A stretch of DNA of 64,000 bases, taken from assembly GCF_002160915.1 (NCBI RefSeq), contig NZ_NFLM01000015.1, positions 1 to 64,000 of the forward strand, in the 5' to 3' direction. The notes beneath the pieces are model-generated. The model did not search any database. It was not told the origin of the DNA and saw only the letters and a list, made by a program, of their open reading frames with translations. The translations under genes and the position numbers were made by a program. Position 1 is the first letter of the stretch; each line of letters begins with the position of its first letter. This DNA is from Faecalibacterium sp. An121 (GTDB taxonomy: Bacteria > Bacillota > Clostridia > Oscillospirales > Ruminococcaceae). Shown piece after piece: positions 5,448 to 42,997 of the stretch.

Positions 5448-5650
5448 CCGCCCTTCCGCCCGGATACGCCCGGAACCGCCCGCCTGGGCGGATCACCGGG
5501 CGGCAAAGCGGGCGGATGTGATTTTAAAAAACAACGATATTACAATGAAAATAAAGCATTTCCAGGTGAGCGGGCGCGTAGGGCGGGAAATTTTCACTTC
5601 CTGCTCTTTTTTTATGAGCGGGCACAATCCGGGCGGACACATACGCCCTT
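5448..5650. repeat. GGGCGG/CCGCCC iteron-like cluster
   Basis: About ten copies of GGGCGG, its complement or one-base variants lie between the excisionase gene and the end of the helicase gene, in both orientations. Direct repeats beside a P4-type replication protein gene suggest an origin recognised by that protein. The stretch 5292-5611 has no gene. Confidence 0.5.
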
Positions 5651-6940
5651 ATAGCCCCGGTACTCGCCCCCGATGTGCTTCGAGAAGGTAAGGTTGTACT
5701 TGCCGGCACTCTTGAAAAGAAACTGGCTGAACCGCTTCTGAGAGACGGGCGTCTCCAGATTTTCCATGCACCACTTGGAGTAGGCATAGAACAGGTGGGT
5801 AGACCTGGCAGCTGCATCTTCGGCAAAGCGAAGATACTTGTCCGAGGCCATGAACTGATCCAGATTGTTCCCGTCGGCCATCACGGCTTCCAGATTCTTT
5901 CGAGTCCGTTCGCTGAGGGTAAAGCGGTACTGGTTGGCCAGAAGCCGTTTGAGACCCTCCAGCATCCAGAGAAAAATCCCCGGCAGCTCGGCAGCCATCT
6001 TGTCAATCAAAAAAGGATCGTCCACCCGGTTGGGGTCACGATCCTTTACCGAAATCAAAATTTGCCGTCGCCAGAAGCCGTCGCTGCTGTCATTGACGGC
6101 GATCAGATTGCCGTTGCCGAAGCAGAGCAGCCGGACATAGAGCCGGCCCTGGGTGGCCTGTTTTCCTTTCCGTTCGATGCAGGTCTTGTCCTCGGCGGTG
6201 ACGATGGACTTCACGTTCCGGGTGTCGGGCAGAGCCGTCATCTGGAGATCATCGTCCACCATCACCAGTTTGTGTTCCAGGTTGGCGCTGGCGAAGCGGT
6301 TGGTTTCCAGCCGATGGATTGATTCCATGTGAACGGAATCGCCCATCAGCTTTTTGACCACCAGTCCGATGCGGGATTTGCCTTCGCCGCCCCGTCCGGT
6401 GAGGATCATCATTTTCTGCGCCTTGGTGGAAGGAATGAGAAGATATCCCAGATACTCCTGTAGGGTTGGGATGTCCTCTGGTACCAGCAAGCCATTCAGA
6501 AAGCCCAGCCAGGTTTCCGGGGCCGGGGCGTCCGGCTGGTACTCCACCGGGAAGCGATTGAGGCAGAGTTCCTTTTCGGGAACAAAGCCCCTCTCATCCA
6601 GGTAGTAGGTCCCATTTTTCAAATGAATCCGGTCCAGCTGGGTTTCCCATTCTTCCCGGTAGCACTCCATCTTGATGGCATCCACAATTCGCTTGGTCTT
6701 TTTGGCGGTGTCATTGCGGGCAGCCGGCCGGATCTCCTGGTGGATTTCGTGGCGTAGCCGCTCCTCGTTGACCTCACCGTCCACATCAAATAATTTTTGG
6801 TCCAGGCACATCAGTGGACGCTTCTGCAGAAAATAGGCGCAGAATGCAGACTCCACGATTTTGCCCTTGCTGTCAATCCAAAGTTGGTCCTCTTCCTGCT
6901 CATCCATTTCGTCGCGGACATCATCGTCTGTCCAGGTCAT
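5612..6940 (-). CDS. P4-family replicative helicase of E1
   Basis: A 442-residue superfamily 3 helicase of the phage P4 alpha / D5 type, which would unwind an origin when the element is excised. Walker A is GRGGEGKS (182-189) and Walker B is KLVMVDDD (about 230). Arginine-rich sensor segments follow. No N-terminal primase domain is present. Its ATG at 6940 is preceded by AAGGAGG and overlaps the 3' end of the relaxase gene by 20 bases, so the two are translationally linked. It resembles the helicase of E2 (37997) in length and motif order. Confidence 0.88.
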   Translation of the reverse strand: MTWTDDDVRDEMDEQEEDQLWIDSKGKIVESAFCAYFLQKRPLMCLDQKLFDVDGEVNEERLRHEIHQEIRPAARNDTAKKTKRIVDAIKMECYREEWETQLDRIHLKNGTYYLDERGFVPEKELCLNRFPVEYQPDAPAPETWLGFLNGLLVPEDIPTLQEYLGYLLIPSTKAQKMMILTGRGGEGKSRIGLVVKKLMGDSVHMESIHRLETNRFASANLEHKLVMVDDDLQMTALPDTRNVKSIVTAEDKTCIERKGKQATQGRLYVRLLCFGNGNLIAVNDSSDGFWRRQILISVKDRDPNRVDDPFLIDKMAAELPGIFLWMLEGLKRLLANQYRFTLSERTRKNLEAVMADGNNLDQFMASDKYLRFAEDAAARSTHLFYAYSKWCMENLETPVSQKRFSQFLFKSAGKYNLTFSKHIGGEYRGYKGVCVRPDCARS

Positions 6941-27864: not shown

Positions 27865-29355
27865 CTATTTTTGCTTCAACCTCTCGCACACCGCCAGTAG
27901 CTCCTCCAGCTTCTCCACAATTCGCTTTTGTTCAGCAAGAGGCGGGAGAGGAACTATGAGATTCCTCAATGATTTCAAACCAACTGTCTTTTGTGCTGTT
28001 CCAGTCGCTACCGCATCACACTGGGATTTTATAGTAGGACTTTTCAGAATATAGAAAATATAATCCCAATCAAGCATCAATTTCAAAAGTGCAATGTGGC
28101 GTTGAAAGCAAAACTTTTCATCACTTTCAACTTTTATCGGGATACCATATGACCCTGTAACTGTAAAAAGAATGTCTCCCTTTTGTGCAATCCGGTCGTT
28201 CGACAAAGTATTAAAATAATCTTGCGGAACATAACGGGTACTTGAAAAGTCAATTCTACCGGCAGAAACATTTGAAATCACTAAAAAAGGGACACCTTCA
28301 GGCACTTGCGGCGGCGGTTGATGATCTCCATCTGAAATACTTTTACATATTTCCCCCAACCTCACCCACATCCACCCCTCGGGTATCTCAAAGGGCTTCT
28401 CCTCCTCTGTGATCTCCGGCAGGGGTTTTTCTTTTTTGAGTTTGCCTTCCTTAATAAGCCGCTGTTTCTCGATCTGTATCTGTTCATACAGCTCCTGGGC
28501 GGTGCCTTCTTCGGGGCGCTGTTCCACCAGTTTGCCCTGGATGGCCTGCTGGAGGATGGATTTTTTCATATCCTCGGGGAAGCGGCGGTTGAAGTCCTCC
28601 AGTTTGGTCCATGCCTGTTCATAGCGGTCCACCAGGGGCAGGAGTTCTTCAATTTTGGCGACAATGCGCTTCTGTTCAGCAAGGGGTGGGAGGGGGAAAA
28701 GAAGTGCTTTTACAACTCCTGCACTTAATTCTGTCTGGTTTGTAGAGCCAGAACCCAGTTTTTCCATATATGGCTGATAGTATTTCAAAGAGTAAAAGGC
28801 AAATTTAACAGAAATATGGGTATTGGTTCTTATTATGGTGACATGTGAATCGGGTACAATTGGATGGCCGTTTGGATTATCGTTGCTATGATATATTCCA
28901 ACTCTACCAAGTGTACCGTTACCGGTAGAGTTTAAGACTATATCATTGTCCATCATGAATTCTTCCTTTGGATATTTGCTGAGTTTTGCTTCATCCAGAA
29001 ACTGAGCCAGAGATAAGTCAATATATCCGGCTTTGGTATTGCATTTCTGTGCGAAAACAAGAATATTGCTTTTTACTGCATATGTTGGCGATTTTCCGCG
29101 CTTAATTGTCTTTATAACAATATCGTTGAGCCTGCACCACATCCACCCCTCAGGTATCTCAAAGGGCTTCTCCTCCTCGGTAATCTCCGGCAGGGGCTTT
29201 TCTTTTTTGAGTTTACCCTCTTTTATCAGCCGCTGCTTTTCGGCCTGGATCTGGGCATACAGTTCCTGGGCGGTGCCTTCTTCGGGGCGCTGCTCCACCA
29301 GTTTGCCCTGGATGGCAAGCTGTAAAATGCTGTTTTTGAGTTCCTGCGGGGTCAT
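27865..29355 (-). CDS. hsdS: Type I restriction specificity subunit HsdS
   Basis: A 496-residue subunit that chooses the bipartite DNA target for HsdM and HsdR. It has two target recognition domains (about 70-235 and 320-480), each introduced by the same segment of roughly 70 residues running from KSILQ(L/Q)AIQGKLVEQRPEEG to EKPFEIPEGWMW. The second recognition domain ends with LPPLAEQKRIVEKLEELLAV, the normal distal helix. Its ATGA start overlaps the hsdM stop. The recognition domains are lower in GC than the conserved spacers. Confidence 0.95.
   Translation of the reverse strand: MTPQELKNSILQLAIQGKLVEQRPEEGTAQELYAQIQAEKQRLIKEGKLKKEKPLPEITEEEKPFEIPEGWMWCRLNDIVIKTIKRGKSPTYAVKSNILVFAQKCNTKAGYIDLSLAQFLDEAKLSKYPKEEFMMDNDIVLNSTGNGTLGRVGIYHSNDNPNGHPIVPDSHVTIIRTNTHISVKFAFYSLKYYQPYMEKLGSGSTNQTELSAGVVKALLFPLPPLAEQKRIVAKIEELLPLVDRYEQAWTKLEDFNRRFPEDMKKSILQQAIQGKLVEQRPEEGTAQELYEQIQIEKQRLIKEGKLKKEKPLPEITEEEKPFEIPEGWMWVRLGEICKSISDGDHQPPPQVPEGVPFLVISNVSAGRIDFSSTRYVPQDYFNTLSNDRIAQKGDILFTVTGSYGIPIKVESDEKFCFQRHIALLKLMLDWDYIFYILKSPTIKSQCDAVATGTAQKTVGLKSLRNLIVPLPPLAEQKRIVEKLEELLAVCERLKQK
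28377..29345 (-). repeat. Direct repeat pair inside hsdS
   Basis: About 190 bases at 28377-28565 and 29152-29345 are closely similar, encoding the duplicated spacer helices. Recombination between them would delete or exchange one recognition domain. No second hsdS or invertase is nearby. Confidence 0.8.
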
Positions 29356-30827
29356 TCGGCGGCACCTCCCAGGGCAGCGGTAATTTCGGCCAGGACGCGG
29401 TCGATCTCGGCGTTCAGCGAGGCCCGCTGCTCCTCATAGCGGTGGATCAGGTCCAGCGGGGCTAGGATCTCTTCTTCCTCGTGGGGATAGCCGCACTGGT
29501 CCAGGTTGTAGCCCAGCTCTTCCTCCAGCTGCCGGACGGTGAACTGCCGGGCCTTGTCGAAGCCGTCCACCGTCAGCTCCTGACGGTCGTTCCACCACGC
29601 TTCCGCCGGGGCGAAGTGTTCGAGCTTCATAGGTTTGGTCTTGCTGAAGTGCTTGTACCCTTCCGGCATATCCAGCCGGTAGAACCAGGTGGAGCGGGTG
29701 GGGCCGGTGCGGTCAAAGAACAAAATATTGGTGGTGATGGAGGTATAGGGGGAAAAGACGCTGCCCGGCAGACGGATGATGGTGTGCAGATTGAATTCAT
29801 GCAGCAGCTTCTTTTTGATGTTCAGCTTGGCGTTGTCGGTGCCGAACAAAAAGCCGTCAGGCAGGATGACCGCCGCGCGGCCGCCGGGTTTGAGCCGGTA
29901 CATGATCACCGACATAAACAGGTCGGCGGTCTCGCTGCTGGCCAGGTCGGCGGGAAAGTGGTTTTTCACGTCGGCCTTTTCACTGCCGCCGTAGGGCGGG
30001 TTCATCAGAACCACGTCGAAGCAGTCCTCCGGGGTGTAGTCCAGCACGTCGTGCAGCAGGGTGTTGTCATGGTAGACCTGGGGGTTGTCCATGTTGTGCA
30101 GCAGCAGGTTGGTGATGCAGAGCATATAGGGGAACTGCTTTTTCTCGATGCCATAGACGGAATTACTGAAAGCCGCCTCGTCCTCGGTGGTCCTGACCTG
30201 CTTGTGCAGCTCCTTCAGCCAGCTGGTCAGAAAGCCGCCGGTGCCGCAGGCAAAGTCCGCCATCCGCTCCCCGATTTTGGGGCGGATCATCCGGGCCATA
30301 AAGTCGGTGACGGCACGGGGCGTATAGAATTCGCCAGCCGTCCCGGCGCTTTGCAGCTCCTTCAGGATGGTCTCGTAAATCTCGCCGAAAGCGTGGCTTT
30401 CTTCGTAGTCGTCCAGGTGCAGCTCGTCAATGGTATTGATGACCTGCCGCAGCAGGACGCCGTCCTTCATGTAGTTGTTGGCGTCGGCAAAGGTGGTCTG
30501 GACAATGGCCTTGCGGATGGGGGTATCGGCATCCACCGGCAGGTTTTTCAACGTCGGGAACAGGGTATTGTTGACAAAATCCAGCAGCTTGTCCCCGGTC
30601 ATCTCTTTTCCGTTTTTCTGGCCGGCCCAGTTTTCCCAGCGGCAGGGCTCGGGAATGATGGACTGGTAGTTCTCGTCCTCCCATTCCCAGTCCGCCTCTT
30701 TGGTGGCGTATACCTTCAAAAACAGCAGCCAGGCGATCTGCTCGATCCGCTGGGCGTCGCCGTTGATGCCGGCATCGTTGCGCATAATATCCCGCAGCCG
30801 CTTGATAAATCCAGATAAGTTGCTCAT
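29352..30827 (-). CDS. hsdM: Type I restriction methyltransferase subunit HsdM
   Basis: A 491-residue N6-adenine methyltransferase. An N-terminal helical HsdM_N domain is followed by GEFYTPRAV (165-173), motif I DFACGTGGF (191-199) and motif IV NPPYGG (276-281). With HsdS it forms the modification enzyme, and with HsdR the restriction complex. It overlaps hsdS by four bases and lies 15 bases after the DUF262 gene, in a five-gene leftward operon. Confidence 0.96.
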   Translation of the reverse strand: MSNLSGFIKRLRDIMRNDAGINGDAQRIEQIAWLLFLKVYATKEADWEWEDENYQSIIPEPCRWENWAGQKNGKEMTGDKLLDFVNNTLFPTLKNLPVDADTPIRKAIVQTTFADANNYMKDGVLLRQVINTIDELHLDDYEESHAFGEIYETILKELQSAGTAGEFYTPRAVTDFMARMIRPKIGERMADFACGTGGFLTSWLKELHKQVRTTEDEAAFSNSVYGIEKKQFPYMLCITNLLLHNMDNPQVYHDNTLLHDVLDYTPEDCFDVVLMNPPYGGSEKADVKNHFPADLASSETADLFMSVIMYRLKPGGRAAVILPDGFLFGTDNAKLNIKKKLLHEFNLHTIIRLPGSVFSPYTSITTNILFFDRTGPTRSTWFYRLDMPEGYKHFSKTKPMKLEHFAPAEAWWNDRQELTVDGFDKARQFTVRQLEEELGYNLDQCGYPHEEEEILAPLDLIHRYEEQRASLNAEIDRVLAEITAALGGAAE

Positions 30828-30842
30828 AAAAATGATACCGCC

Positions 30843-33392
30843 TTAAACGTTTTGCTTTAAGTATGGAACAAAAGCATCGTAGAATTTCTTACTCCACTCT
30901 GCATGAAACTTGGCCATTCTTGTCCAATCCTCTTCGTTTTCGATACTTACTCCGTCGAGCGTGAGGACAATATAGGAACTCTTTTTATCATCCATTCTGA
31001 GCCAGGACACCGGTGTTCCAAGCCTCGTTTCAATCTCCTCTTTATGCTGAAACAGAAAATCAAAAGATTGTTTATTCCTTTCTTTTTTGAAGTGTTCCAA
31101 ACACAGTTCTATCTTCGCCACATTGTAATTTGCCACGCAGGCAAACGAGAATCCTCCAATTCCAAAGAAACCGTTGATCCAGTTTTCTTTGGATGTCGTA
31201 CAACCCGAGAAGCACCCATGTCCTGTACCATCGTCATTGGCCTTCTGAATATAGGGCAAAGCAAATGCCCAATATTTTCGCCGCAACTCTGCGCGGGTCC
31301 CTGCTTCCTCGGCGCTCTTGTCTGTATTTGAATCCTTTAGAATAAAGATTAGCGCTTCTTCATCTGCACCATAGGCTTTAAAGAATTTTCTTAGAAGAGA
31401 AATCTTGGTGACTGTACTGGTATTCCGCTCTACAAAAATATTCTCGTCGATTTTAAGAGCATTGCGCAGATCATCCGGATGGCTGCTTACATAGGCATCC
31501 AGTTCGTTATCAGGGTCCGATTTATAAGCCAGCCTCGACAGCACCGACCGGTCCTCTGTATGGAGGATTTTCAAAACCTGTTCCATCATATCGATCCAGC
31601 TGGTGACCGGCTGCTCCGTATTTTTATATCTGAAGCGCAAAATGTCCCGACCGCTCAGATCCACATCATCTCCCAGAGAATAGGAGTCCATTTGCTTTTC
31701 CGCCGGTCTATAATTTGTCTCGGGCATGGGCCAGATGGTCACCGCCCGCTGCATTAACAGCTGATTTCGTGCTTCTAGTTCGGCCAGCCCCCAATGCTGT
31801 TGCTGTCCGATCCAGCTGTTCAGGTAAAGATGACTATTGATAAACCCATTTTCCATATCTCGCTTTTCTGCGAATGGGCTGTTGCTGTATTTGGAATTGT
31901 ATCCAGTCAGGGTTAGGTTTGCAATCCGGTGCAGCCACCGCTCATGGATCTTTTCATAATCTTCTCCCAACTCCTTGACCCATGCCGGAGTGAGATGCTG
32001 TGGCATGATATGTTCAATGGAGTAGACCCCCTTGTCAAATTGCTTGTAGACATTCTGGACTTCTACTGTGCCAAAATTCTCGAACCGTTCTAGGATATAG
32101 ATCTTGTTTTTGCTATTCATCTGGTAAACTGGACGAATGGTAAAAGCCTCCACAAACTCAGCATCATCCGGGAAACGGCCGCGGTCCGTCTTGGATTTAA
32201 GAGCATATTTAAACTTTTCCAGATAATTCGCTTCCGTACCATCGTAGCGGATGATTTCCCGATGAAGCATCAAAAAGATTTTGTTCAGGGCGTTGGTGGG
32301 CAGGTCACAGATACTTCGACGAAACAGATAATTTTCCGTTAGAAGGAAAATCTCCCTCACCTGCGCAAGGTCCAGCTTTCCTTCTGCTTGTAAGCGAAGC
32401 ACTTCGAGAAAGAAGGGGCGGGTGACAGTAGTCTCCAAGCGATTTAACCGGTAAATACAGGCGTTCAGTGCCGTATCCTTCGTCTTGCCTTTAAGTAAAG
32501 TCTCATACCACCGTGCATAATCCAACAGCTCCTGAAGGAGCTGCTCAATCTCCAGCGCACGATCTTCCACAAAAGCCTTAAACGTGAAATAAACGTTGTT
32601 CATTGCAGGAATTATCTGCTGCTTGATACTCAGATAGTCCCGAATGAAACCGCTGACGTTGTAGCTGGTGTAAATTTCAATTTTATTCCAGTATTTTTCG
32701 TAAAAGTCATTTTGCTGCTTTGGCGGCTGGCCCATTAGGATAAAGTTCCGGATTTTATCACCTTCACTCAAAGCTACGCCAGTGGAGTTCAAGCTCTCAA
32801 AGATTAGCTGTGGGTTATCTTCCTGATTCAGGATAATGTTGATGATTTCAAGTTTTGTAATGGCGTCATAGAGTTCATCCAGGGTTACTTCTTCTTTCCG
32901 AAGCCGGGAGTAAAAATAATTGTAATTGATGGTAAGGTTGGAATCTGGGATATATCCTGATTCTTCGTCGAACAGCCGTCTAAAAGCTTCCCGATCATTT
33001 TTTACCGGCTTTAGTTTAATCCGGGTCTCATCTTCCTGCCACTCGTCGATCAAATAAGTTTTATAGATCTTTTCAGCAAGATTTCCTTTGGAAGGGGTGA
33101 GAATCCCTTGCTTCATCAAATTGTACATTGCAAGCAGCAATAACGAGATTGTAGTAAGCCGCTGCTGTCCATCAATCACAAGCAGTTCGTTGAATTCACC
33201 ATCATTGTGAACCGATACAATGCTGCCAAAGAAGTGACTTTTCCTACCTTTGCGGACTACTTTTACCAAATCATTATACAACTGCTTGCAGTTTTCTGTC
33301 TTCCAGTCATAGTTCCTTTGGTATACAGGGATGACAAACCGTTTATCCGATCCCTGCATATATGCAACCAGTTTTGTCTCAGAACCCTTCAT
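30843..33392 (-). CDS. GmrSD-like DUF262 / HNH (DUF1524) protein
   Basis: An 849-residue fusion. The N-terminal DUF262 domain has FVIPVYQRNYDW (19-30) and LLVIDGQQRLTT (70-81), a ParB-like nucleotide-hydrolysing fold. The DUF1524 nuclease has YSIEHIMPQHL (457-467) and RIANLTLTGYNSKYSN (489-504), the His and Asn expected of an HNH site. A C-terminal DUF4268-like domain ends the chain. GmrSD proteins are type IV enzymes that cut glucosylated phage DNA. This one lies between hsdR and hsdM, so modified-DNA restriction may be bundled with the type I system. Confidence 0.85.
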   Translation of the reverse strand: MKGSETKLVAYMQGSDKRFVIPVYQRNYDWKTENCKQLYNDLVKVVRKGRKSHFFGSIVSVHNDGEFNELLVIDGQQRLTTISLLLLAMYNLMKQGILTPSKGNLAEKIYKTYLIDEWQEDETRIKLKPVKNDREAFRRLFDEESGYIPDSNLTINYNYFYSRLRKEEVTLDELYDAITKLEIINIILNQEDNPQLIFESLNSTGVALSEGDKIRNFILMGQPPKQQNDFYEKYWNKIEIYTSYNVSGFIRDYLSIKQQIIPAMNNVYFTFKAFVEDRALEIEQLLQELLDYARWYETLLKGKTKDTALNACIYRLNRLETTVTRPFFLEVLRLQAEGKLDLAQVREIFLLTENYLFRRSICDLPTNALNKIFLMLHREIIRYDGTEANYLEKFKYALKSKTDRGRFPDDAEFVEAFTIRPVYQMNSKNKIYILERFENFGTVEVQNVYKQFDKGVYSIEHIMPQHLTPAWVKELGEDYEKIHERWLHRIANLTLTGYNSKYSNSPFAEKRDMENGFINSHLYLNSWIGQQQHWGLAELEARNQLLMQRAVTIWPMPETNYRPAEKQMDSYSLGDDVDLSGRDILRFRYKNTEQPVTSWIDMMEQVLKILHTEDRSVLSRLAYKSDPDNELDAYVSSHPDDLRNALKIDENIFVERNTSTVTKISLLRKFFKAYGADEEALIFILKDSNTDKSAEEAGTRAELRRKYWAFALPYIQKANDDGTGHGCFSGCTTSKENWINGFFGIGGFSFACVANYNVAKIELCLEHFKKERNKQSFDFLFQHKEEIETRLGTPVSWLRMDDKKSSYIVLTLDGVSIENEEDWTRMAKFHAEWSKKFYDAFVPYLKQNV

Positions 33393-33397
33393 TTTTA

Positions 33398-35740
33398 TTA
33401 CACTATCCCTTCCTGATAAATCGCCTGTTCCAATTCTCGTACCGCTTTGAGATACCCTTCCTTCCCGCCAAAATAGCTTGCGATCTTGGCGGGCTTGCCC
33501 ATCTTGAGGAAGGGGTCCAGCTTGAGGACCTCCGTTTTCTCGATCTCATAGATACCGATGTTGCAGTATTTATCCAGCAGCGCCTCCAGGACCTGATAGG
33601 CCGCGCCGCTGTACTTGCTCAGGAAGTCACGCTTTTTAACGTTGTTGGCCCGCTCCCTGCGGGTCAGGGGTTTCTTGTCGAACGCCACATGACAGATGAA
33701 GTCGAAGTCATCCACATCGGTCATCCCCTGCTCTGCTTTCACCTGTTCCAAGTCAATGCCCCGCTGGCGCAACAGATCGCGGATGGCTTCCTTCTTGTCT
33801 TGCGTGCTCCATTGGTGGATGAAGTTGTCCAGAGAGGCATACCGGCCAAGGATGTTTTCTTTGGTATAGTCTATGATGCTTTCCTGACGCAGCAGTTTGC
33901 CGTCGGTGTCGTAGATGGAAACGGTTTTCTGAATGATACGGACCTTACAGCCGTTTTCGTCCACGATGGGGGTAGGCAGCTTTGCGCTGCCGTCGTGATC
34001 ATCCTTGCCCGGCGCTTTTTCCTGCGGGGGCAGGTCCTTCCCTTGTCCTTTGGCTGTTCCGAATTCCTCGTCGATCTCCAGAGGGCCGTCCCAGTCGGGG
34101 TCAGCAAACAGCCGGGTGACGTTGCGGAAATCCATCACGGTGAAATGGGTCTTACCCTCTTTTTCCCGCAGACGGGTGCCCCGTCCAAGGATCTGCTTGA
34201 ACTCAGTCATTGAGCCGATCATCTCATCCAGCACGATCAGCTTGGTCATTTTGATATCGGCCCCAGTGGACAGCAGCTTGGAGGTTGTAGCAATCACCGG
34301 ATATTTTTCCGTTGTAGAGCGGAAATAGTCCAACTTACTCTTTCCCACATCATCACTGCCGGTGATCCGCACCACATAGTCCGGGTTCTGTTTCATCATG
34401 TCCTGATTCAGCTGTGCCAGCATATCCCGCATGCGCAGGGCTGCATCCTCGGTGGCACAGAACACAATGGTGCGGGCCATCCGGTCGGTGCTCTTGAGGT
34501 ATCGGGTGATCTCCTGGGCCACTTCGCGGATGCGGTCCTCTATAATGATGTTGTAGTCGTAGTCGCTGTTGGTATAGATGCGGTCGGGAATCTCATTGCC
34601 ATAAATGTCCAACTGCCCCCTTCGGGGCCGCCAGCCCTCCCCAATGTTGGTCATGACATTGATGACCTTGAACGGCGCAAGAAAGCCGTCCTCGATGCCT
34701 TCTTTCAGGCTGTAGGTATAGACCGGCTCGCCAAAATAGCTGAGGTTGGAGATGTACTTGGTTTCCTTGGGGGTGGCGGTCATGCCGATCTGCACAGCAT
34801 CCGAAAAATATTCCAGCACCCGCCGCCAGCGGCTTTCCTCCTTGGCCGATCCTCGGTGACACTCGTCTACGATGATCAGGTCGAAGAAATCCGGTGCGAA
34901 CAGCTCGCTGAAGTGTTCCTGGTCGTCATCGCCCACCAGCTGCTGGTACAGGGAAAAATACACCTCATAGGATGTGACGGTGTTTTTCTGGTCCTTTTTC
35001 ACATTGACCTTGTGGATGGTCTTTTGCAGCGGGGCAAAGTCCTGCTCGATGGATTGATCCACCAGCATATTGCGGTCAGCTAGGTAAAGGACCTTGTGTA
35101 CCGTTTCGCTCTTCAAAAGCCGGTAGACGATCTGGAACGCGGTGTAGGTTTTGCCGGTTCCGGTGGCCATCACCAGCAGCAGCCGTTTTTGTCCCCGGGC
35201 GATGGCGTCAACAGTCCGGTTGATGGCGATCCTCTGGTAGTAACGTGGCGGGTAGGTAGCCTGGCTGGAAAAATAGGGCTGTGCCATGGCCGCCTCCTGA
35301 GCGGGCGTCAGGCCGGATTCCCGCTTATAGCGGTCGGACAGTTCGGCCTCCGTGGGGAATTCATCCATTCCAAATTGCCGCTCGGCCCCGGTGAGGAAAT
35401 CGTGCTCGGCAAAGCCGTCCCCATTGGAACTGAAAGCAAAGGGCAAATCCAGCATTTTGGCATAGTCCATCGCCTGCTGCAGCCCCGCCGATACCTGGTG
35501 ATTGTTATCTTTTGCTTCCACCACTGCGATGGGATTGTTTGCGCTGAGGTAGAGCAGGTAATCCACCCGTTTGCCAGGCTGCCGCACCGCAAGGTTACCC
35601 TTCAGGCTGATCTTGCCATCGGTAATTTGGGTCTCCATGGTGATCTTTTGGCGTTCCCATTTGGAAGTCAACGCAGGGGTAATGTATTGCAGCTTAATAT
35701 CCTCTTCTGTCATGTTCTGCTTCAGAATGATCGGCTCCAT
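33398..35740 (-). CDS. hsdR: Type I restriction subunit HsdR
   Basis: A 780-residue motor and nuclease subunit. The N-terminal nuclease shows D60 (KRVDYLLY) and E75-A-K77 (VVEAKDN). The SF2 translocase has Walker A MATGTGKT (191-198), VDECH (291-295) and MTATPKET. A C-terminal HsdM/HsdS-binding region completes it. The length is at the short end for HsdR, like EcoR124-unlike two-domain versions. The start at 35740 is chosen for its GGGGG ribosome site and the MEPIILKQNMTEEDIK beginning; the frame runs further upstream without a site. It is the first gene of the operon. Confidence 0.95.
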   Translation of the reverse strand: MEPIILKQNMTEEDIKLQYITPALTSKWERQKITMETQITDGKISLKGNLAVRQPGKRVDYLLYLSANNPIAVVEAKDNNHQVSAGLQQAMDYAKMLDLPFAFSSNGDGFAEHDFLTGAERQFGMDEFPTEAELSDRYKRESGLTPAQEAAMAQPYFSSQATYPPRYYQRIAINRTVDAIARGQKRLLLVMATGTGKTYTAFQIVYRLLKSETVHKVLYLADRNMLVDQSIEQDFAPLQKTIHKVNVKKDQKNTVTSYEVYFSLYQQLVGDDDQEHFSELFAPDFFDLIIVDECHRGSAKEESRWRRVLEYFSDAVQIGMTATPKETKYISNLSYFGEPVYTYSLKEGIEDGFLAPFKVINVMTNIGEGWRPRRGQLDIYGNEIPDRIYTNSDYDYNIIIEDRIREVAQEITRYLKSTDRMARTIVFCATEDAALRMRDMLAQLNQDMMKQNPDYVVRITGSDDVGKSKLDYFRSTTEKYPVIATTSKLLSTGADIKMTKLIVLDEMIGSMTEFKQILGRGTRLREKEGKTHFTVMDFRNVTRLFADPDWDGPLEIDEEFGTAKGQGKDLPPQEKAPGKDDHDGSAKLPTPIVDENGCKVRIIQKTVSIYDTDGKLLRQESIIDYTKENILGRYASLDNFIHQWSTQDKKEAIRDLLRQRGIDLEQVKAEQGMTDVDDFDFICHVAFDKKPLTRRERANNVKKRDFLSKYSGAAYQVLEALLDKYCNIGIYEIEKTEVLKLDPFLKMGKPAKIASYFGGKEGYLKAVRELEQAIYQEGIV

Positions 35741-36131
35741 AAACGTCCCCCTTTTCCCTACATGACAGGAACAAACCATCGCGCTTCGACAAACTGTTTT
35801 ATTCAGTATAGCATAATGGACAGGGCGGCTCAAGGTGACAGATGCCATTTTAGCAAAGATGCCGGGTCATAAATTGGACCGCTTTGTGTTTTCTTTTGCC
35901 CCACGGTCCTCTCCATCCTTGCGACGGCTACTCATTTATGGAGTAGCTGCCCGGCAATGCGCAAAGAACCGCTTGCCGCCCGTTGCAGCCGGAAGAATCC
36001 AAAGAAACCGCGCCGGGGTTTCGTGGCACACGACTTTGCTTGCAAAGTCTAGTGTGTTATACCTTTGCGAAGGAGAGGGCAGCAGAAGCATACTCTGCAT
36101 TTCCTGTTCAGGCGATGAAACCCACCAAAAT
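35741..36131. other. Intergenic region upstream of hsdR
   Basis: About 390 bases between hsdR and the XRE gene terminator. It should carry the hsd promoter, but no confident hexamer pair is seen and no gene. Confidence 0.35.
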
Positions 36132-36223: not shown

Positions 36224-37036
36224 CTATTTCTTTGAGCGTTTTCCTCTCTGGCTGGCCCCACCTTTGAGCAGATTGGATTTCTTGCAAATCTCTACCAGCC
36301 AATGTTTCTCGTTGTCGGTCAGTTTGCTGTAATTGATTTGGTTCTGCTTGCAAAACAGCATCATCAGCTTTTCAACCTTGCTGCCCTTGACCTGTGAGAT
36401 TTCCTCTAAAGATTCCTTGAATTCGGCTAAAGGAGACTCCACCGACGCACTGGACGTATCTTTGGAATGCTGCTGTTTGAGGTCAGTCAAAATTCGCTCC
36501 ACATCATTACTCACAACACGGGCAAAGTATTCATCTTCGTCGATCTGCGCTGCCTTCAATGCCCGCAGAGTGTTGTCCTCTTTCGGGTCGTACTTCTCCA
36601 CGATTGAGGTACGTACCGATTCCAGCAAGGCGTTCAGGTTCCGAATCTGCATAGACACCATACCGTCCACATAAATCTCCATATCCGCCATCAGGCGCGG
36701 GAACTCCGGGTGGGTAATAAGCTCACAGAAAAGCCGGTTGTTTATCCTTCCACTTTTTAGCATTTCTATTGCTTCATCGCTCAGATGCAAGTCCGCAAGG
36801 ACTGCGTCTGAGCGATTTTTGTTTTCCACCAGACCCAAAAGGTAATCTGTCATCACATCATAGAAACCCGCCAGCTTAGTGATGGCAAACAGGCTTATGT
36901 CCCCTGATTCATTTGTCTCATACTTGCCAAGGGCCGCTTTTGACAGGCCCGTTTGAGCTGCCAGTTCCTCCAGAGTGCAGCCCCGTTCAATGCGCAGGTC
37001 CTTGAGGCGTTCGCCTAACGTCAGCTTTGTATGCAT
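36224..37036 (-). CDS. XRE-family repressor of E2
   Basis: A 270-residue regulator. The N-terminal helix-turn-helix is LGERLKDLRIERGCTLEELA then AQTGLSKAALGKYET (about 7-42). The rest is an unassigned, largely helical domain that may sense a signal or oligomerise. It is divergent from the CHC2-helicase-mob-int genes, and the shared control region has a matched inverted repeat over its own -35 box. I infer that it governs replication and excision of E2. Confidence 0.82.
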   Translation of the reverse strand: MHTKLTLGERLKDLRIERGCTLEELAAQTGLSKAALGKYETNESGDISLFAITKLAGFYDVMTDYLLGLVENKNRSDAVLADLHLSDEAIEMLKSGRINNRLFCELITHPEFPRLMADMEIYVDGMVSMQIRNLNALLESVRTSIVEKYDPKEDNTLRALKAAQIDEDEYFARVVSNDVERILTDLKQQHSKDTSSASVESPLAEFKESLEEISQVKGSKVEKLMMLFCKQNQINYSKLTDNEKHWLVEICKKSNLLKGGASQRGKRSKK

Positions 37037-37397: not shown

Positions 37398-38000
37398 ATG
37401 ATTCTTTTTAAGACAGTAAAAGAATCTATCACTGTCAAGCAGGCCGCGGCCCTGTACGGCCTGCCCATCACGACCACCGGGATGACCCGGTGCCCCTTCC
37501 ATGAGGACCACACCCCCAGCATGAAGCTGAACGACGCCTATTATTACTGTTTCGGCTGCGGAGCCACCGGCGACGTGATCGACCTCACCGCCCACATATT
37601 CGACCTTAGCAGCCTACAGGCTGCCCGGAAACTGGTTCAGGATTTTGACCTCAGCCCGGACAAGCCCCCATCCGGCGCGGTTACACTGCCCAAGCCGCTC
37701 ACCGCCATTTTCGATACCCAGCAAGAGGATATTGCCTACTGTCTACGGGTCCTCCATGACTACCGCGACCTGCTGACCCAGTGGCAGACAGAGTTTGCTC
37801 CCCTCTCCCCGGAGGAACCGCTGAACGAGCGCTTCGTGGAAGCTTTGCACATGTTGGATGTCGTAGATGACCTTATGGATTGTCTGGCTTTTGGGCCGCC
37901 CTCCCAGAAGGCGGCCGCTGCCAAGCGCCTGCTGGATGGTCAACTTCTGCCCAGAATGGAAGCCCGCTTGGACACCCTCAAAGCAAAGGAGGTCGCATGA
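37398..38000 (+). CDS. CHC2 zinc-finger primase-like protein
   Basis: A 200-residue protein with the zinc finger of bacterial DNA primases: C32, H35, C51 and C54 in RCPFHEDHTPSMKLNDAYYY then CFGCG. No TOPRIM catalytic domain follows, so it is a stand-alone zinc-binding module that probably works with the helicase translated directly after it. The stop overlaps the helicase start (ATGA). GAGGTG precedes the ATG. Confidence 0.88.
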   Translation: MILFKTVKESITVKQAAALYGLPITTTGMTRCPFHEDHTPSMKLNDAYYYCFGCGATGDVIDLTAHIFDLSSLQAARKLVQDFDLSPDKPPSGAVTLPKPLTAIFDTQQEDIAYCLRVLHDYRDLLTQWQTEFAPLSPEEPLNERFVEALHMLDVVDDLMDCLAFGPPSQKAAAAKRLLDGQLLPRMEARLDTLKAKEVA

Positions 38001-39337
38001 AAAGCAAAACCTACCGGCCCAGCTCCAACGATCCAGTTTGGCTGGAAGAAGGGCATCGAATCAACGAAGCGGTTTTCTGTGAGACCTTCATGTCCACACA
38101 CAAAATCATTTTCTGCAACGGCTCTTTCTTTACCGAAGATGGCCGTGTCACCGACGAAATGCCTCTGCGCAGCATGATTTATGAGGAGCTGCGGGACTAT
38201 GCCAGCAGCAACGTAGCCCGCAAGGTGGGCAATATCCTGGACTTGCTCAAGCTTTCTGCCCAGGTGGATAACTTCCGTCCAGTCACCAACTGCATCCACC
38301 TGGCCAATGGAACCCTGCACTTGGATGGAAGTTTTCAGGAGGGCAAGCCGGAAGTGGTCCGCAACCGGCTTCCCGTTCGGTATAACCCCGCAGTGGCCCA
38401 GCCTGTCCACTGGCTGCGGTTCCTGTCCGCCCTGCTCTACCCCGAAGATATTCCCACGGTTCAAGAATTTATCGGGTACTGCCTTATCCCCAGCAATAAG
38501 GGCCAGAGGATGATGGTCCTCAAGGGCCGCGGCGGTGAGGGCAAAAGCCAGATCGGCGTGGTGTTGTCCAGTCTGTTCGGCACCAATATGAAAGACGGCA
38601 GCATCGGCAAAATATCAGAAAACCGCTTTGCCCGGGCCGATCTCGAGCACATCCTGCTCTGCGTGGATGACGATATGCGGATGGAGGCTCTGCGGCAGAC
38701 CAACTACGTCAAGTCCATTGTCACGGCCCAGGGCCAGATGGACCTGGAACGGAAGGGCAAACAGAGCTACCAGGGCTGGATGTATGCCCGGCTGCTGGCC
38801 TTCAGCAATGGCGATCTGCAAGCCCTGTATGACCGAAGTGACGGCTTCTACCGGCGGCAGCTGGTCCTCACCACCAAGGACAAGCCCGCCGACCGGATAG
38901 ATGACCCTGACATCGCCGAGAAGATGGCCGCCGAGGCCGAAGGGATTTTCCTCTGGGCCTTTGAAGGGTTGCAGCGCCTGGTTCGGAACAGCTTCAAGTT
39001 CACCGAGAGCGACCGAGCTCGGCAGAACCGGGAGCTGGTCAAGCGGGACAACAATAACTTCTTTGACTTCATGGAGGCCGAGGATTATATCCGGCTCAAG
39101 GCGGATGCCTGTGTCAGCTCCAAAGACCTCTACACCATTTATAAGATGTGGTGTGAGGAGAACAACCTGGTGGCCCTGAAAGCTCGGAGCTTCAGTGACG
39201 CCGTGATCGCCAACCTAAAGAAGTATAACCTGGAGCACACCAACAACATCCTCAACTCGGCAGGCCGCCGTGTATGGGGCTACCTGGGAATTGAAGCCCT
39301 GGTCCGGCCGGAGATGCCTACCTCTTCCTGGGGATAA
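37997..39337 (+). CDS. P4-family replicative helicase of E2
   Basis: A 446-residue SF3 helicase. Walker A is KGRGGEGKS (176-184) and Walker B is LLCVDDDM (220-227). The start at 37997 is chosen for its AAAGGAGG site and four-base overlap with the CHC2 gene. It is equivalent to the E1 helicase but sits beside a different kind of origin region: palindromic iterons and hairpins rather than GGGCGG repeats. Confidence 0.9.
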   Translation: MKSKTYRPSSNDPVWLEEGHRINEAVFCETFMSTHKIIFCNGSFFTEDGRVTDEMPLRSMIYEELRDYASSNVARKVGNILDLLKLSAQVDNFRPVTNCIHLANGTLHLDGSFQEGKPEVVRNRLPVRYNPAVAQPVHWLRFLSALLYPEDIPTVQEFIGYCLIPSNKGQRMMVLKGRGGEGKSQIGVVLSSLFGTNMKDGSIGKISENRFARADLEHILLCVDDDMRMEALRQTNYVKSIVTAQGQMDLERKGKQSYQGWMYARLLAFSNGDLQALYDRSDGFYRRQLVLTTKDKPADRIDDPDIAEKMAAEAEGIFLWAFEGLQRLVRNSFKFTESDRARQNRELVKRDNNNFFDFMEAEDYIRLKADACVSSKDLYTIYKMWCEENNLVALKARSFSDAVIANLKKYNLEHTNNILNSAGRRVWGYLGIEALVRPEMPTSSWG

Positions 39338-39340
39338 AAC

Positions 39341-39986
39341 TGTATATGGGAGAACTTGGCCTTTTTGCTATGTACGTATGTACGAGGCCAGTACAGACGC
39401 ATCCGGCATAAGGCTCCAGAGAGTGTAACCGTTTGTTACTCCCTTGAAGTGGCTGTGACCAAATTGGTCACTACCAGAATCTCTTGATTTGACGCTCGAG
39501 TTCTGATTCACGAAATTGAAGTGGCTGTTCCCATTTTGGGAACAGCCAAAATCATGTATATGGGAGCACTTCGCCTTTTTGCTATGTACGTATGTACGAA
39601 GTCTGTACACGCACGTACATAGCGAAAATCCTAAAACACGCCATATACGCAAATCCTTTATAAGGCTAAAGTGGTAGTGGGCATTTTGTCCACTACCACA
39701 CTGAGTTGATCAAATTTTCACGGTGGCAACTCGGCTTTAGTGGCAGTGGATCTTTTCGGAAGTGCATCTGCTTTGGTCCAATCCTTGTAATCAAGTGGTC
39801 AATTTGACCACTTGATCTTGCACAATAGAAGTTCGAGTTGATGTAAAAGAATCAACGGACAGATTTTGTCCGTTGATTTTCTGGAATGCCGAGATGTTCA
39901 CCTTTCACCGCTATGTATGCACTAACCCCCCCGTACGCACGTACATAGCGAAAAGCCCAAAACGTGCTATATACGCAATCCTTTAT
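39341..39986. repeat. Palindromic iterons GCTATGTACGT of E2
   Basis: The core GCTATGTACGTATGTACG occurs at 39367 and 39581, inverted at about 39611 and 39935, and in weaker form at 39910. Two longer direct repeats surround them: about 45 bases at 39341 and 39555, and about 50 bases at 39611 and 39937 that end in ATATACGCAA-TCCTTTAT. Such nested repeats next to a helicase gene suggest the replication origin of the excised element. Confidence 0.7.
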
Positions 39987-40204
39987 GACACTGAAGTGGC
40001 CTGGGTCAAAATGACCCAGGCCACTCCTCTCCGATCAAGTTCCCATTTTGAGAACTTGATTTGAGATGGAACACCTTCTATCCCCTTATATAAATCAGTT
40101 GGTCATTTTGACCAACTGATAAAAGAGGATGTATCAATAATCAAGTGGTCAAAATGAACACTTGATTTTAGTTTGGTTGGTGCTGGACATTTTGTCCAGC
40201 ACCA
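39449..40204. repeat. Array of ten hairpins with a constant ATTTT loop
   Basis: Inverted repeats at 39449-39476, 39523-39547, 39671-39699, 39790-39816, 39850-39878, 39995-40025, 40034-40060, 40094-40120, 40139-40167 and 40178-40204. Stems are 9-13 bp and differ from one another, but the loop centre is ATTTT, its complement AAAAT, or a close variant (AAATT, AATTT), usually closed by C-G. Several stems are perfect. No ORF spans them. They lie between the helicase and the MobV relaxase. I infer a structure-recognised site in replication or transfer, or a structured RNA. Confidence 0.8.
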
Positions 40205-40250: not shown

Positions 40251-40385
40251 ATGCCCGTCACCAATATGATTGAATTGCCAAAAAGGAGGGCCGTCCTTGA
40301 GCCAACCACAATATGCCATCATGCGCTTCGCCAAGTACAAGGGGCCGGAGATATCCAACATCGAAGCCCACAACGAGCGTACTAA
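40251..40385 (+). CDS. Possible 44-residue leader ORF
   Basis: An ATG at 40251 has AGAAAGGAG eight bases upstream and runs 44 codons, passing through the MobV start in another frame. The first part, MPVTNMIELPKRRAVLEP, spans the ribosome site of MobV. It may serve to couple or limit MobV translation rather than to make a useful protein. Confidence 0.35.
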   Translation: MPVTNMIELPKRRAVLEPTTICHHALRQVQGAGDIQHRSPQRAY

Positions 40386-41271
40386 AGAAAAGTACGCCAG
40401 CAACCCTGATATTGACCGCTCCCGCAGCAAGTACAACTTCCACCTGATTGAGCCAACCGGCAGGTATAGGGCAGAGGCCGAGAATCAAATCCAGGCTGCC
40501 GGATGCCGTACCCGAACAGACAGCGTCCGGGTGGTGGAGGTTCTGTTCACCGCTACGCCGGAGTTTTTCAAAGGCAAGAAGCTGCCCGAAGTCCGGCGCT
40601 ACTTTGAAGAAGTGCTCTGCTTCTTCGAGCAATACCAATCCAGAGAAACGATCATCTCCGCCGTGGTGCATATGGACGAGAAAACGCCCCATATGCACCT
40701 TTCTTTTGTTCCGCTGACCGCAGACGGCCGCCTGAGTGCCAAGGAGATCGTGGGCAACAAAAAGAAGCTGACCTGGTGGCAGGACAAGTTCTGGGAACAC
40801 GTGGTCCAAAAATACCCCGACCTGGAGCGCGGCGAGAGCGCAAGCCAGACGGGACGCGACCACATTCCACCCCGCATTTTCAAGGAGATGACCCGCCTCA
40901 ACAAGCAGCGCCAGAAGTTGGAGGAACTGCTTACCGGCATCGGGCCTCTTAATAGCAAAAAGCGGGCCGCCGAAATCTCCAAACTGCTGGACGGTTATAT
41001 CCCGGCTGTGGAGAAGATGCACACTCAGCTCAAGAAGTACAACGTAGCCTTCACCGAGACGGCCACAGAGAACAAGCAACTGAAAAAGAAGGCCGCCGAG
41101 TTGGAGCAATCTCTGGAAGCCGCCACCAAAACCAGCGTCCTCAAGGAGCTGCGGGACGCACAGCTCCGGCGCGATTATGAGGATGCTCTGGCATTGCTGG
41201 AACGGATACCGAAAGAGGTTTTGGACGAATTCAGGAGGCCCAAAGCCGCCCAGCGTACTGCCGAACTTTGA
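40297..41271 (+). CDS. MobV-family relaxase (Pre/Mob type)
   Basis: A 324-residue relaxase that nicks and mobilizes E2. The MobV signature motifs are present: HNERTKEKYASNPDIDRSRS (25-44) and HMDEKTPHMHL (125-135), with H125, D127, H132 and H134 as likely metal ligands. The C-terminal third is a charged coiled coil. The start is a TTG at 40297 with AAAAGGAGGG eight bases before it; the next ATG (40321) lacks a site. It belongs to a different relaxase class from E1, although the recombination genes of the two elements are close relatives. Confidence 0.92.
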   Translation: MSQPQYAIMRFAKYKGPEISNIEAHNERTKEKYASNPDIDRSRSKYNFHLIEPTGRYRAEAENQIQAAGCRTRTDSVRVVEVLFTATPEFFKGKKLPEVRRYFEEVLCFFEQYQSRETIISAVVHMDEKTPHMHLSFVPLTADGRLSAKEIVGNKKKLTWWQDKFWEHVVQKYPDLERGESASQTGRDHIPPRIFKEMTRLNKQRQKLEELLTGIGPLNSKKRAAEISKLLDGYIPAVEKMHTQLKKYNVAFTETATENKQLKKKAAELEQSLEAATKTSVLKELRDAQLRRDYEDALALLERIPKEVLDEFRRPKAAQRTAEL

Positions 41272-41292
41272 ACCATGAAAAGGAGAATGCCA

Positions 41293-41598
41293 ATGAAGAA
41301 AAATAACAACACACCCACAAATTTCACCTCAGAAACCTTGCAAAACACCCCCGAAACCGGTACAATGGAATCAGTCACCCAAAACAATGCCGTCAAGTCT
41401 CCGAACTCTGACCTGAAACAGCCCGAACGGAAAGCCTGTGTCTACACGGTGGAGGAGGTGGCGCAGATGCTGGCCATCAGCCTGCGCTCTGCCTATAACC
41501 TGTGCAACAGCACCACCGAGTTCCGTGTCTTACGGGTAGGCGGAAGCATCCGCGTCCCCAAGGACAGTTTTCACGCCTGGCTGTTCCGGGCAGCCTGA
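41293..41598 (+). CDS. Excisionase-like HTH protein of E2
   Basis: A 101-residue protein whose C-terminal half, VYTVEEVAQMLAISLRSAYN then LCNSTTEFRVLRVGGSIRV, is an excisionase-type winged helix. GGAG lies eight bases before the ATG at 41293. It ends 13 bases before the integrase start. The truncated gene at 24131 is a close relative. Confidence 0.85.
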   Translation: MKKNNNTPTNFTSETLQNTPETGTMESVTQNNAVKSPNSDLKQPERKACVYTVEEVAQMLAISLRSAYNLCNSTTEFRVLRVGGSIRVPKDSFHAWLFRAA

Positions 41599-41611: not shown

Positions 41612-42997
41612 ATGGCATATATCACCAAACGCGGCGGCTCTTATGGCGTCCGCTACACCTACCAGGACGAGCACGGCAAAAGCTGCGACAAATGGGAAAG
41701 TTTCTCCACCAAAGAGGAGGCGATGAACCGCAAAAAGCAGGTCGAGCACGAGCTGGCCAGCGGCACCTTCCTGATCCCTTCAACGGTAACGGTCGGTGAG
41801 TTCCTGATGGACTGGCTGCCCAAACAGTGCAGCAAGCATAAGTGGGCACCCAAGACTTATCAGTCCAATCTGTCCACCATCCAAAACCTTATTGTTCCCT
41901 ATATCGGAAACATGGAGATGCAGAAGCTCAAGCCTTATCACTTGGAGAACCTGTACAGCACTCTGAGCAAGACGCCTTGCGGCCAGTATATCGAAGGCAA
42001 AAAGCAGAAGCTGACCCCCAAACAAAAGCAGCGGCTGCTTTCCGGTACCACCATCCATGAGGTCCACCGATTGCTGCACACCGCATTCCTCTATGCGGTG
42101 GAGTGGGGCATTCTACTGAAAAGCCCCGTCCCTCTGGAAGGCCCCAAAAAGACTACCCAGGAGCGGAGCATCTGGAGCGTTGAGGAAATGCGGGCGGCCC
42201 TCGCCAGCATGGAGGACCCTATCCTTCATCTGGCGGTCCACCTGACTCTGGTTGGCGCACTGCGGGAAGGCGAAGTGGCAGGGCTTACCCCGGAAGACAT
42301 CGACTTTGACGCCGCCGGCGGGGTCGGCACCTTTTCAGTCAACAAGTCGATGCAGCGGGTACAGAAAGAATCTCTAAGCCAAGTAGGCGACAGTTGTGTG
42401 TTAAAAGCCTTTGAGGACAAGCGGGAGGGCAGCAAGACCCTTCTGATTCTAAAAAGCACCAAAACAGATGCATCTCGCCGGATCATCTTCCTGACCGCCG
42501 CTCTCCGGGAGGAACTGAAATGCTGGCTGGAACAGTTAAAAGCCGACGAGTCCCGTGCACCAGAACGCTACCACGACAGCGGAATGCTTCTCCGCCTGCC
42601 CAACGGTCAGGCCGTGGAGCCGGTCCTCATCCGCAAAAAGTTCCTCAAATGGCAGGACGCGCACCCGGAATTTCCCCGCATCGTCTTTCATGGGCTGCGG
42701 CATTCCAGTGCCACCTACCAGCTGATGATCTCGGGCGGCGATGTGAAAGCCGTACAAGGCACGACAGGCCATGCCAGCGCGGATATGCTGGTCAATACCT
42801 ATGCCCATATCCAGCAGACTTCCCGCAAAGAGCTGGGACAAAAGTTCGAGGAGAGCTTTTACAAGGAAGCCGGTAAGCCCGCTCAACCGTCTGAGATAGC
42901 CGGTGAGGCCGCCATCTCCATGTCCGCCTTGCTCGATCTGTTGAATAACGCCGACCCTGCGGTGAAGGCACAGCTCCGCTTGGCCCTCATGACCTGA
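41612..42997 (+). CDS. Tyrosine recombinase (integrase) of E2
   Basis: A 461-residue integrase acting at tRNA-Lys. An N-terminal arm-binding domain (KRGGSYGVRYTYQDEHGK), core-binding domain and catalytic domain are present, with R218 (ALREGE), H360 and R363 (HGLRHSS), H387 (GHA) and Y397 (NTYAH). Its layout matches the E1 integrase residue for residue through the catalytic positions. It reads towards the tRNA-Lys gene and is the last gene of the element. Confidence 0.95.
   Translation: MAYITKRGGSYGVRYTYQDEHGKSCDKWESFSTKEEAMNRKKQVEHELASGTFLIPSTVTVGEFLMDWLPKQCSKHKWAPKTYQSNLSTIQNLIVPYIGNMEMQKLKPYHLENLYSTLSKTPCGQYIEGKKQKLTPKQKQRLLSGTTIHEVHRLLHTAFLYAVEWGILLKSPVPLEGPKKTTQERSIWSVEEMRAALASMEDPILHLAVHLTLVGALREGEVAGLTPEDIDFDAAGGVGTFSVNKSMQRVQKESLSQVGDSCVLKAFEDKREGSKTLLILKSTKTDASRRIIFLTAALREELKCWLEQLKADESRAPERYHDSGMLLRLPNGQAVEPVLIRKKFLKWQDAHPEFPRIVFHGLRHSSATYQLMISGGDVKAVQGTTGHASADMLVNTYAHIQQTSRKELGQKFEESFYKEAGKPAQPSEIAGEAAISMSALLDLLNNADPAVKAQLRLALMT

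Follow-up and report, generated by a model that had tools for sequence, protein, structure and literature searches.

A palindrome array upstream of a MobV relaxase gene in Faecalibacterium resembles putative sites carried inside diversified ParB-like genes

The integrative mobilizable element SGI1 carries two parS mimics that are bound by the ParB protein of its helper; the IncC parABS system is hijacked, SGI1 being stabilised and the helper destabilised (PMC10954446). In plasmid RK2, the ParB-family repressor KorB silences replication and transfer genes from OB operators that lie near or far (PMC11790492). Staphylococcal plasmids harbour oriT mimics which are recognised by allele-specific SmpO proteins (PMC8136818), and a survey of orphan ParB-CTPase-fold proteins places such proteins outside parAB operons and links them to mobile elements (PMC12704722). 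The principle of a borrowed parS is already known, but neither an array of many specificities nor a target inside the linker of the protein's own gene was met in the open-licence literature searched, where no title or opening line of an abstract among the matches listed describes such a palindrome array.

Here we describe an array of ten palindromes in the window (the whole 64-kb stretch of DNA that was analysed). Like SGI1, the element concerned is integrative and mobilizable and has palindromes matching the ParB sites of another element. However, SGI1 has two copies and one helper with ParA, and binding has been shown (PMC10954446), whereas Faecalibacterium arrays hold up to eleven mostly different candidate sites (in L087), and the ParB-like proteins look like orphans with putative sites inside their own genes. 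The likeness to KorB lies in a ParB-family repressor whose operators are placed near to or far from the promoters for replication and transfer on a mobile element, although KorB reads one operator type on its own plasmid (PMC11790492), while the Faecalibacterium array has differing sites and the candidate proteins are encoded elsewhere. As with the oriT mimics, a mobilizable element would carry look-alikes for several helper specificities, specificity following a DNA-binding accessory protein; those mimics, however, are transfer origins read by a relaxosome factor (PMC8136818), whereas the sites of the Faecalibacterium array are putative ParB targets. The main text of the orphan ParB survey contains neither the stem 'palindrom' nor 'Faecalibacterium' (PMC12704722).

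The setting of the array is a small integrative element with the gene order XRE regulator, CHC2 primase, D5-type helicase, array, MobV relaxase, HTH_17 protein and tyrosine integrase (Table 1). Four GTACGT repeat units are present between the helicase and MobV genes, and these flanking features are as the original prediction described them. The MobV protein is 100% identical to one of Faecalibacterium sp. An122; relatives of the helicase are present in 21 of 31 Faecalibacterium genomes and PF01076 relaxases in 22 of the 31. A DNA search of a plasmid collection gave no match. Elsewhere in the window, a second D5-type helicase (5627-6895, minus strand), 44% identical to the first, belongs to another element, and three large open reading frames at 29352-35848 (minus strand) resemble a type I restriction-modification cluster (methylase, DUF262-like and HsdR-like, from translations judged by eye).

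Table 1. Genes, repeat units and palindromes of the element in the window.
Feature	Position	Strand	Remarks
XRE-type regulator	36224-37036	-	HTH_3
CHC2 zinc-finger primase	37398-38000	+	PF01807
D5-type helicase	37994-39337	+	DUF5906 and Pox_D5
GTACGTATGTACG repeat unit, probable replication-origin iteron	39341-39395	+	copy at 39555-39609; origin role presumed
Palindrome A, GTGACCA-AAT-TGGTCAC	39455-39471		inner half-sites 1/16 different from site in ParB-like gene L397
Palindrome B, TGGCTGTTCCCA-TTT-...	39522-39548		without close ParB-borne counterpart; best 4/16 mismatches
Inverted iteron unit	39609-39652	-	copy at 39935-39978
Palindrome C	39671-39699		inner half-sites 1/16 different from site in ParB-like gene L425 (viral contig)
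Two degenerate palindrome relics	39700-39770		recognisable only by alignment with relatives
Palindrome F, ATCAAGTGGTCA-ATT-...	39790-39816		best ParB-borne counterpart 2/16 different
Palindrome G, five-base centre GATTT	39850-39878		without close ParB-borne counterpart; best 4/16
Palindrome H, 31 bp	39995-40025		2/16 from ParB-like gene L408
Palindrome I	40034-40060		2/16 from ParB-like gene L380
Palindrome J	40094-40120		27/27 identical, reverse complement, to palindrome inside L371
Palindrome M, one arm mismatch	40139-40167		2/16 from ParB-like genes L358/L359/L376
Palindrome N	40178-40204		35/35 identical to G000:C24 ParB-like gene (L382/L385)
MobV/Mob_Pre relaxase	40294-41271	+	PF01076; exact start uncertain
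HTH_17 excisionase-like protein	41275-41598	+	family search
Tyrosine integrase	41612-42997	+	family search

Ten palindromes with a score of at least 8 were found within 39449-40204. Eight of them scored at least 10, a value reached by none in 100 dinucleotide shuffles of the array region, confirming that the ten hairpins of the original prediction are real. Their length is 27-31 bp except for one of 17 bp. Nine share the centre CA-[A/T]3-TG, and the tenth has GATTT. The rest of the 64-kb window has seven palindromes scoring at least 10, none with an array-type centre. The covariation of the stems was likewise borne out. In 29 array palindromes, kept after 91 near-duplicates among 120 had been dropped, arm positions -4 to -13 were Watson-Crick paired in 79-97%, as compared to means of 30-50% and maxima of 55-72% upon shuffling of the arms, and each position showed between two and four types of base pair. 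A chance origin was rejected by the dinucleotide shuffles and the arm-shuffle test together. Arm symmetry extends to +/-13, and in one relative (L058) to +/-23. The parS site measures 16 bp, and arms that are symmetric further out, as in the array, speak against ParB sites.

The array lies between helicase and MobV genes that run in the same direction, which would suit a regulatory RNA or hairpins in the leader of the MobV mRNA. When 128 unique CA-N3-TG palindromes were oriented according to the relaxase gene, however, stem mismatches were balanced in the sense strand (31 G·T vs 27 A·C), as were AAA and TTT centres (34 and 33), but AAT (16) and ATT (6) centres were not equal. The seven Rfam matches obtained up to E=1 were all far below the gathering scores. 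A strand-specific RNA was therefore rejected for the CA-N3-TG class on account of mismatch and AAA/TTT symmetry, and the Rfam search gave no credible match. The same symmetry argues against a loop read on one strand. Palindromes with other centres in the same regions (n=100, iteron palindromes included) did show an excess of G·T (55) over A·C (35), a point in favour of RNA, which as an explanation of the array we nevertheless consider extremely unlikely. Thus, the CA-N3-TG class behaves as a palindromic double-stranded site without strand preference, as parS and OB-type sites do.

Comparison of orthologous sites is in agreement with such a site. The palindrome at 39790 has the centre ATT in the window, TTT in L033 and L088, and AAA in L086 and L087, while its arms are kept; this alignment suggests frequent small inversions of the centre. 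Turnover of the centre with conserved arms is what one would expect of a symmetric site in double-stranded DNA that loses nothing by inversion. Sites of this kind, lying ahead of a gene of the element, could also be operators of one regulator, be it the XRE protein or the HTH_17 protein of the element or a protein of the host. Only CA-W3-TG is fixed, however, and a single protein would need to accept a wide variety of symmetric arms, which makes one regulator a very unlikely reader of the whole array.

We then compared the occurrence of the palindromes among Mob loci. Of 99 Mob places, each with at least 1.4 kb of upstream sequence and many of them close relatives of one another, 66 had a CA-N3-TG palindrome scoring at least 9 within 1.6 kb upstream, 20 had at least two and nine at least six. 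Among 80 MobV relatives in named genomes, six or more palindromes lay upstream at 5 of the 10 Faecalibacterium loci; the 70 loci outside the genus comprised 61 without any (nine of these having less than 1.1 kb of upstream sequence) and nine with one or two. In five loci of other genera (L265, L300, L302, L304 and L315) the helicase, GTAC repeat and MobV gene adjoin, by eye, in a compact junction of about 85-170 bases. Related elements lacking the array, which the original prediction had set against its own reading if they replicated and moved normally, do exist, with the same helicase-iteron-MobV layout. Since the array is missing from most MobV relatives, it appears to be an addition that neither the replicon nor the relaxase requires, and an essential part of a MobV origin of transfer was rejected on the 61 of 70 relatives outside Faecalibacterium.

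A/T-centred palindromes numbered 86 in 243 kb lying within 2.5 kb upstream of MobV and 12 in 1,058 kb elsewhere, an enrichment of 31-fold that is inflated, some loci having been chosen because palindromes were present. None was found in 108.5 kb around MobA_MobL relaxase genes, a control with short flanks. The palindromes are not a feature of the whole taxonomic family, as judged with one probe pattern, for which an A/T-only centre was seen in 2 of 24 sites outside the genus and in 36 of 38 within it. The palindrome of one RhuM gene (L046/L047) was set aside as a likely accident of the coding sequence.

Two further palindrome patterns searched in the genus also matched sites away from MobV, many of them within the reading frames of genes for a single protein family. 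Members of this family have about 300-400 residues. A search with one member found it in 22 of 31 Faecalibacterium genomes and in 1 of 60 genomes taken, with one for each genus, from elsewhere in the taxonomic family. No match over the cut-off was obtained in Pfam or NCBIfam and nothing useful in a sequence search of the PDB; PHROGs gave weak ParB matches. A structure model (nine viral-contig relatives) had a mean pLDDT of 77 and a pTM of 0.58, with a confident N-terminal domain and helix-turn-helix. Foldseek returned four PDB matches with E<=0.001, all of them Spo0J/ParB, the best being Spo0J of Thermus thermophilus (probability 1.00, E 2e-4, TM 0.31/0.46); pNOB8 ParB followed, and matches to Spo0J-parS (E 0.28) and KorB-operator (E 2.3) were weak. 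The TM-score is modest and the kind of match consistent, so that the model points to a Spo0J/ParB fold for this family, hereafter called ParB-like.

The palindrome within these genes starts at about codons 117-128, between the parts coding for the N-terminal domain and the helix-turn-helix, and its arms differ widely between alleles. In 62 distinct linker sequences drawn from 89 family matches, many of the genes being close relatives, a score of at least 8 was reached by 57, as compared to 4 of 412 overlapping control segments from other parts of these genes, and a score of at least 10 by 45, as compared to none of the 412. When proteins were clustered at 70% identity, 18 of 23 clusters had a palindrome scoring at least 9 and five did not; this clustering covered all but six of the 16 ParB-like loci from IMG/VR (L429, L434 and L436-L439, which are copies or partial). 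Linkers of 14 of those 16 viral-contig loci, L436 and L437 being left out, were inspected, and six distinct ones carry the palindrome, some with other centres, while others have none. In the structure model the linker is disordered (residues 112-131, pLDDT below 50) and covers most of the palindrome codons, which are about 123-133 in that gene.

By eye, aligned linkers with the palindrome are not visibly longer than those of palindrome-free relatives, which makes an inserted origin of the palindrome unlikely. This bears on a reading in which the palindromes maintain themselves, either by template switching that keeps symmetry without selection or as a dispersed repeat inserting at many places. 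Dispersed palindromic repeats are known under names such as REP and RPE, and inserted copies of that type lengthen the gene or intergenic region that receives them; no such lengthening was seen, by eye, in the ParB-like genes. The AAA/TTT flips at orthologous sites with conserved arms and the presence of copies in several contexts would agree with self-maintenance. The similar codon position in divergent ParB-like genes without visible extra length, the enrichment upstream of MobV, inflated by locus choice as it is, and the absence of palindromes around MobA_MobL genes speak against it, and we regard it as improbable.

The palindromes of the array and those of the ParB-like genes were found to be related in sequence. 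Identity between palindrome N and the ParB-like gene in the window's own genome includes eight bases outside the palindrome, and the gene identical to palindrome J belongs to another Faecalibacterium genome. Arrays of other loci likewise match ParB-like genes, over 33 of 34 bases (L415/L035), 34 of 36 (L406/L042) and 28 of 29 (L395/L098), the last with an unusual centre. Of 83 array half-sites, 10 were identical to a ParB-borne pair over 16 positions (mean 2.8 and maximum 7 in a null of 300 column shuffles), 29 had at most one mismatch to the ParB-borne set (mean 11.0, maximum 19) and 51 at most two (mean 31.4, maximum 42). Thus, a common base composition does not account for the likeness of the array half-sites to the ParB-borne set. 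For the ten palindromes of the window, the best ParB-borne counterpart had no mismatch in two, one in two, two in four and four in two, where a single match with two mismatches means little given the null mean of 31.4 of 83. Palindromes 39522 and 39850, the two without a close counterpart, count against reading the array as ParB sites. The ortholog of the first relic is intact in L087, where 26 of 27 bases agree with ParB-like genes L393/L396, and L033 has an intact version of the second relic. In many ParB-like genes the centre CAAAATG reads as codons for Gln-Asn, which suggests that the array copies may have been derived from ParB-like genes.

The occurrence of the same palindromes in ParB-like genes, together with the Spo0J/ParB fold, links the site sequence to a ParB-family protein. 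It also bears on the original prediction, which had taken the covariation as selection on the fold rather than on the sequence; that step is unsupported because the same palindromes recur inside ParB-like genes and the stems resemble sites of different family members. A binding array of many specificities can mimic structure-conserving covariation. Hairpins of any sequence, selected as single-stranded DNA or cruciforms in replication or conjugative transfer, would account for the strong covariation of the arms, the location between iterons and MobV, and the inversion of the centre between orthologs. They would not lead one to expect identical sequences in ParB-like coding regions, half-sites matching the ParB-borne set above chance, relatives with the same replication and relaxase genes but no palindromes, or a CA-N3-TG class without strand preference, and we hold selection on the fold to be unlikely. 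Among the functions offered originally, the protein-binding array gains from the ParB-borne matches, which favour it at the level of sequence, and the regulatory RNA falls with the strand symmetry.

If the ParB-like proteins read these palindromes, sites should follow the recognition helix. Like helices do occur with like sites: NEKYVRR with TGGACA (L382, L425), TPIFVRR with GTGCTCA (L400, L416) and TVIRA with GTTACCA (L370, L426). In a partial Mantel test on 35 unique helices, site similarity correlated with the recognition helix when the N-terminal domain was controlled for (r=0.175, p=0.004), whereas the reverse test, of the N-terminal domain given the helix, gave r=0.06 (p=0.18). The 75 pairs with an N-terminal distance above 0.45 showed no correlation between helix and site (r=-0.06), and within this set of most distant pairs the sites were even a little less alike for the closest 5% of helices (0.62 vs 0.57). 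The sites therefore appear to track the recognition helices weakly.

ParB-like genes lie in elements with MobC, a relaxase and the ParB-like gene; others are found in small elements that also encode XRE and DUF6551 proteins, either an integrase or a serine recombinase and, in some, a PemK/MazF toxin. The window's own genome has four ParB-like genes, and an adjoining ParA partner, as in ParABS, was not found at any of them: PF13614 was absent from contigs C24 (16.5 kb) and C14 (42.6 kb), and the nearest such gene was 92 kb away on C56 and 18 kb away on C12. The ParB-like proteins thus look like orphans. In 5 of 25 ParB-like loci (L331, L332, L335, L341 and L389) a palindrome lies 533-542 bp upstream of mobC, and in L332 and L335 it differs in type from the one inside the element's own ParB-like gene.

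As in SGI1, there are sites that match those of another element's ParB, and some of the array sites are identical to ParB-borne ones. No ParB-like gene was found in the available sequence of the window's MobV element, and none within 7 kb at the 67 site-bearing Mob places, of which only 26 have at least 12 kb of sequence; at one site-bearing element (L045) a ParB-like gene is 8.3 kb away. One genome (G006) has an array and no detected ParB-like gene.

The array probably consists of about ten putative double-stranded sites for diversified orphan ParB-like proteins of other Faecalibacterium mobile elements. Most sites would belong, or would once have belonged, to a different ParB-like specificity. 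Each protein presumably acts as a homodimer, giving a symmetric site, and different specificities would give different stems; a putative cognate site would also lie within the gene of each protein itself, where the linker is encoded. The ParB-like protein presumably binds its palindrome. With parS or operator look-alikes among its origin repeats and its helicase and relaxase genes, the MobV element would draw the ParB-like proteins of co-resident elements. The origin of the array sites in ParB-like genes, the direction of copying and a benefit to the element are what we infer.

The functional consequence is the least certain part of this explanation. We favour parS mimicry, with SGI1 as the nearest precedent, in which the ParB-like protein of a resident element would be titrated or diverted, or KorB-like control of the helicase and MobV genes. 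Titration or transcriptional control is preferred over hitch-hiked partitioning because ParA was not found on the short contigs of two of the four ParB-like genes of the window's genome and lies far from the other two. More tentatively, the array could be a panel of many specificities for sensing or trapping, its sites collected from ParB-like genes of competing or helper elements, so that whichever protein is present would time or protect the element's own replication and transfer, or disturb the other element. If this were so, the array would record its neighbouring elements in the form of protein-binding sites, and the disordered linker of each ParB-like protein would be encoded by DNA that holds the protein's own target. 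The row of hairpins would then be evidence for a hidden network of mobile elements that may read each other's DNA-binding proteins in an abundant gut bacterium. The 57 distinct ParB-like linkers with a likely target inside the gene (13 clusters of the genus at 70% identity) make specificity and its evolution directly testable.

Several further observations were made around these loci. The gene following the ParB-like gene encodes a DUF6551 protein (PF20188) in L425 (1133-1936, E 1e-100) and L395 (7782-8627, E 2e-93), which is perhaps a partner of the ParB-like protein. Palindromes of 41 bp (GTACGTGCGTAC) like the origin repeats of the window's element occur near ParB-like genes in L336 (3634), L342 (6452) and L344 (9032), and the search for relatives of the window's helicase lists no match in those stretches. 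VapE-type MobV elements have a small Cys-rich protein (c11) inside the palindrome array (L090, 7417-7893; L098, 7365-7715), a relative of which (L091) had no Pfam match at E 0.001.

At c5-type MobV loci (e.g. L052, L050 and L184) the DNA becomes unrelated from within the 3' arm of a single palindrome in 10 of the 31 upstream regions that have it, as if this were a recombination point. Two further Faecalibacterium arrays (L034 and, by eye, L156) are interrupted by insertion sequences. Such sequences lie in or beside arrays at L034 (9490-13127), L156 (2200-4000) and L087 (6027-7400); L087 and L034 encode related transposases of the DUF772/DDE type by Pfam, and the other insertion sequences were judged by eye. 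In L034, one insertion begins just past the centre of one palindrome and stops near the centre of another.
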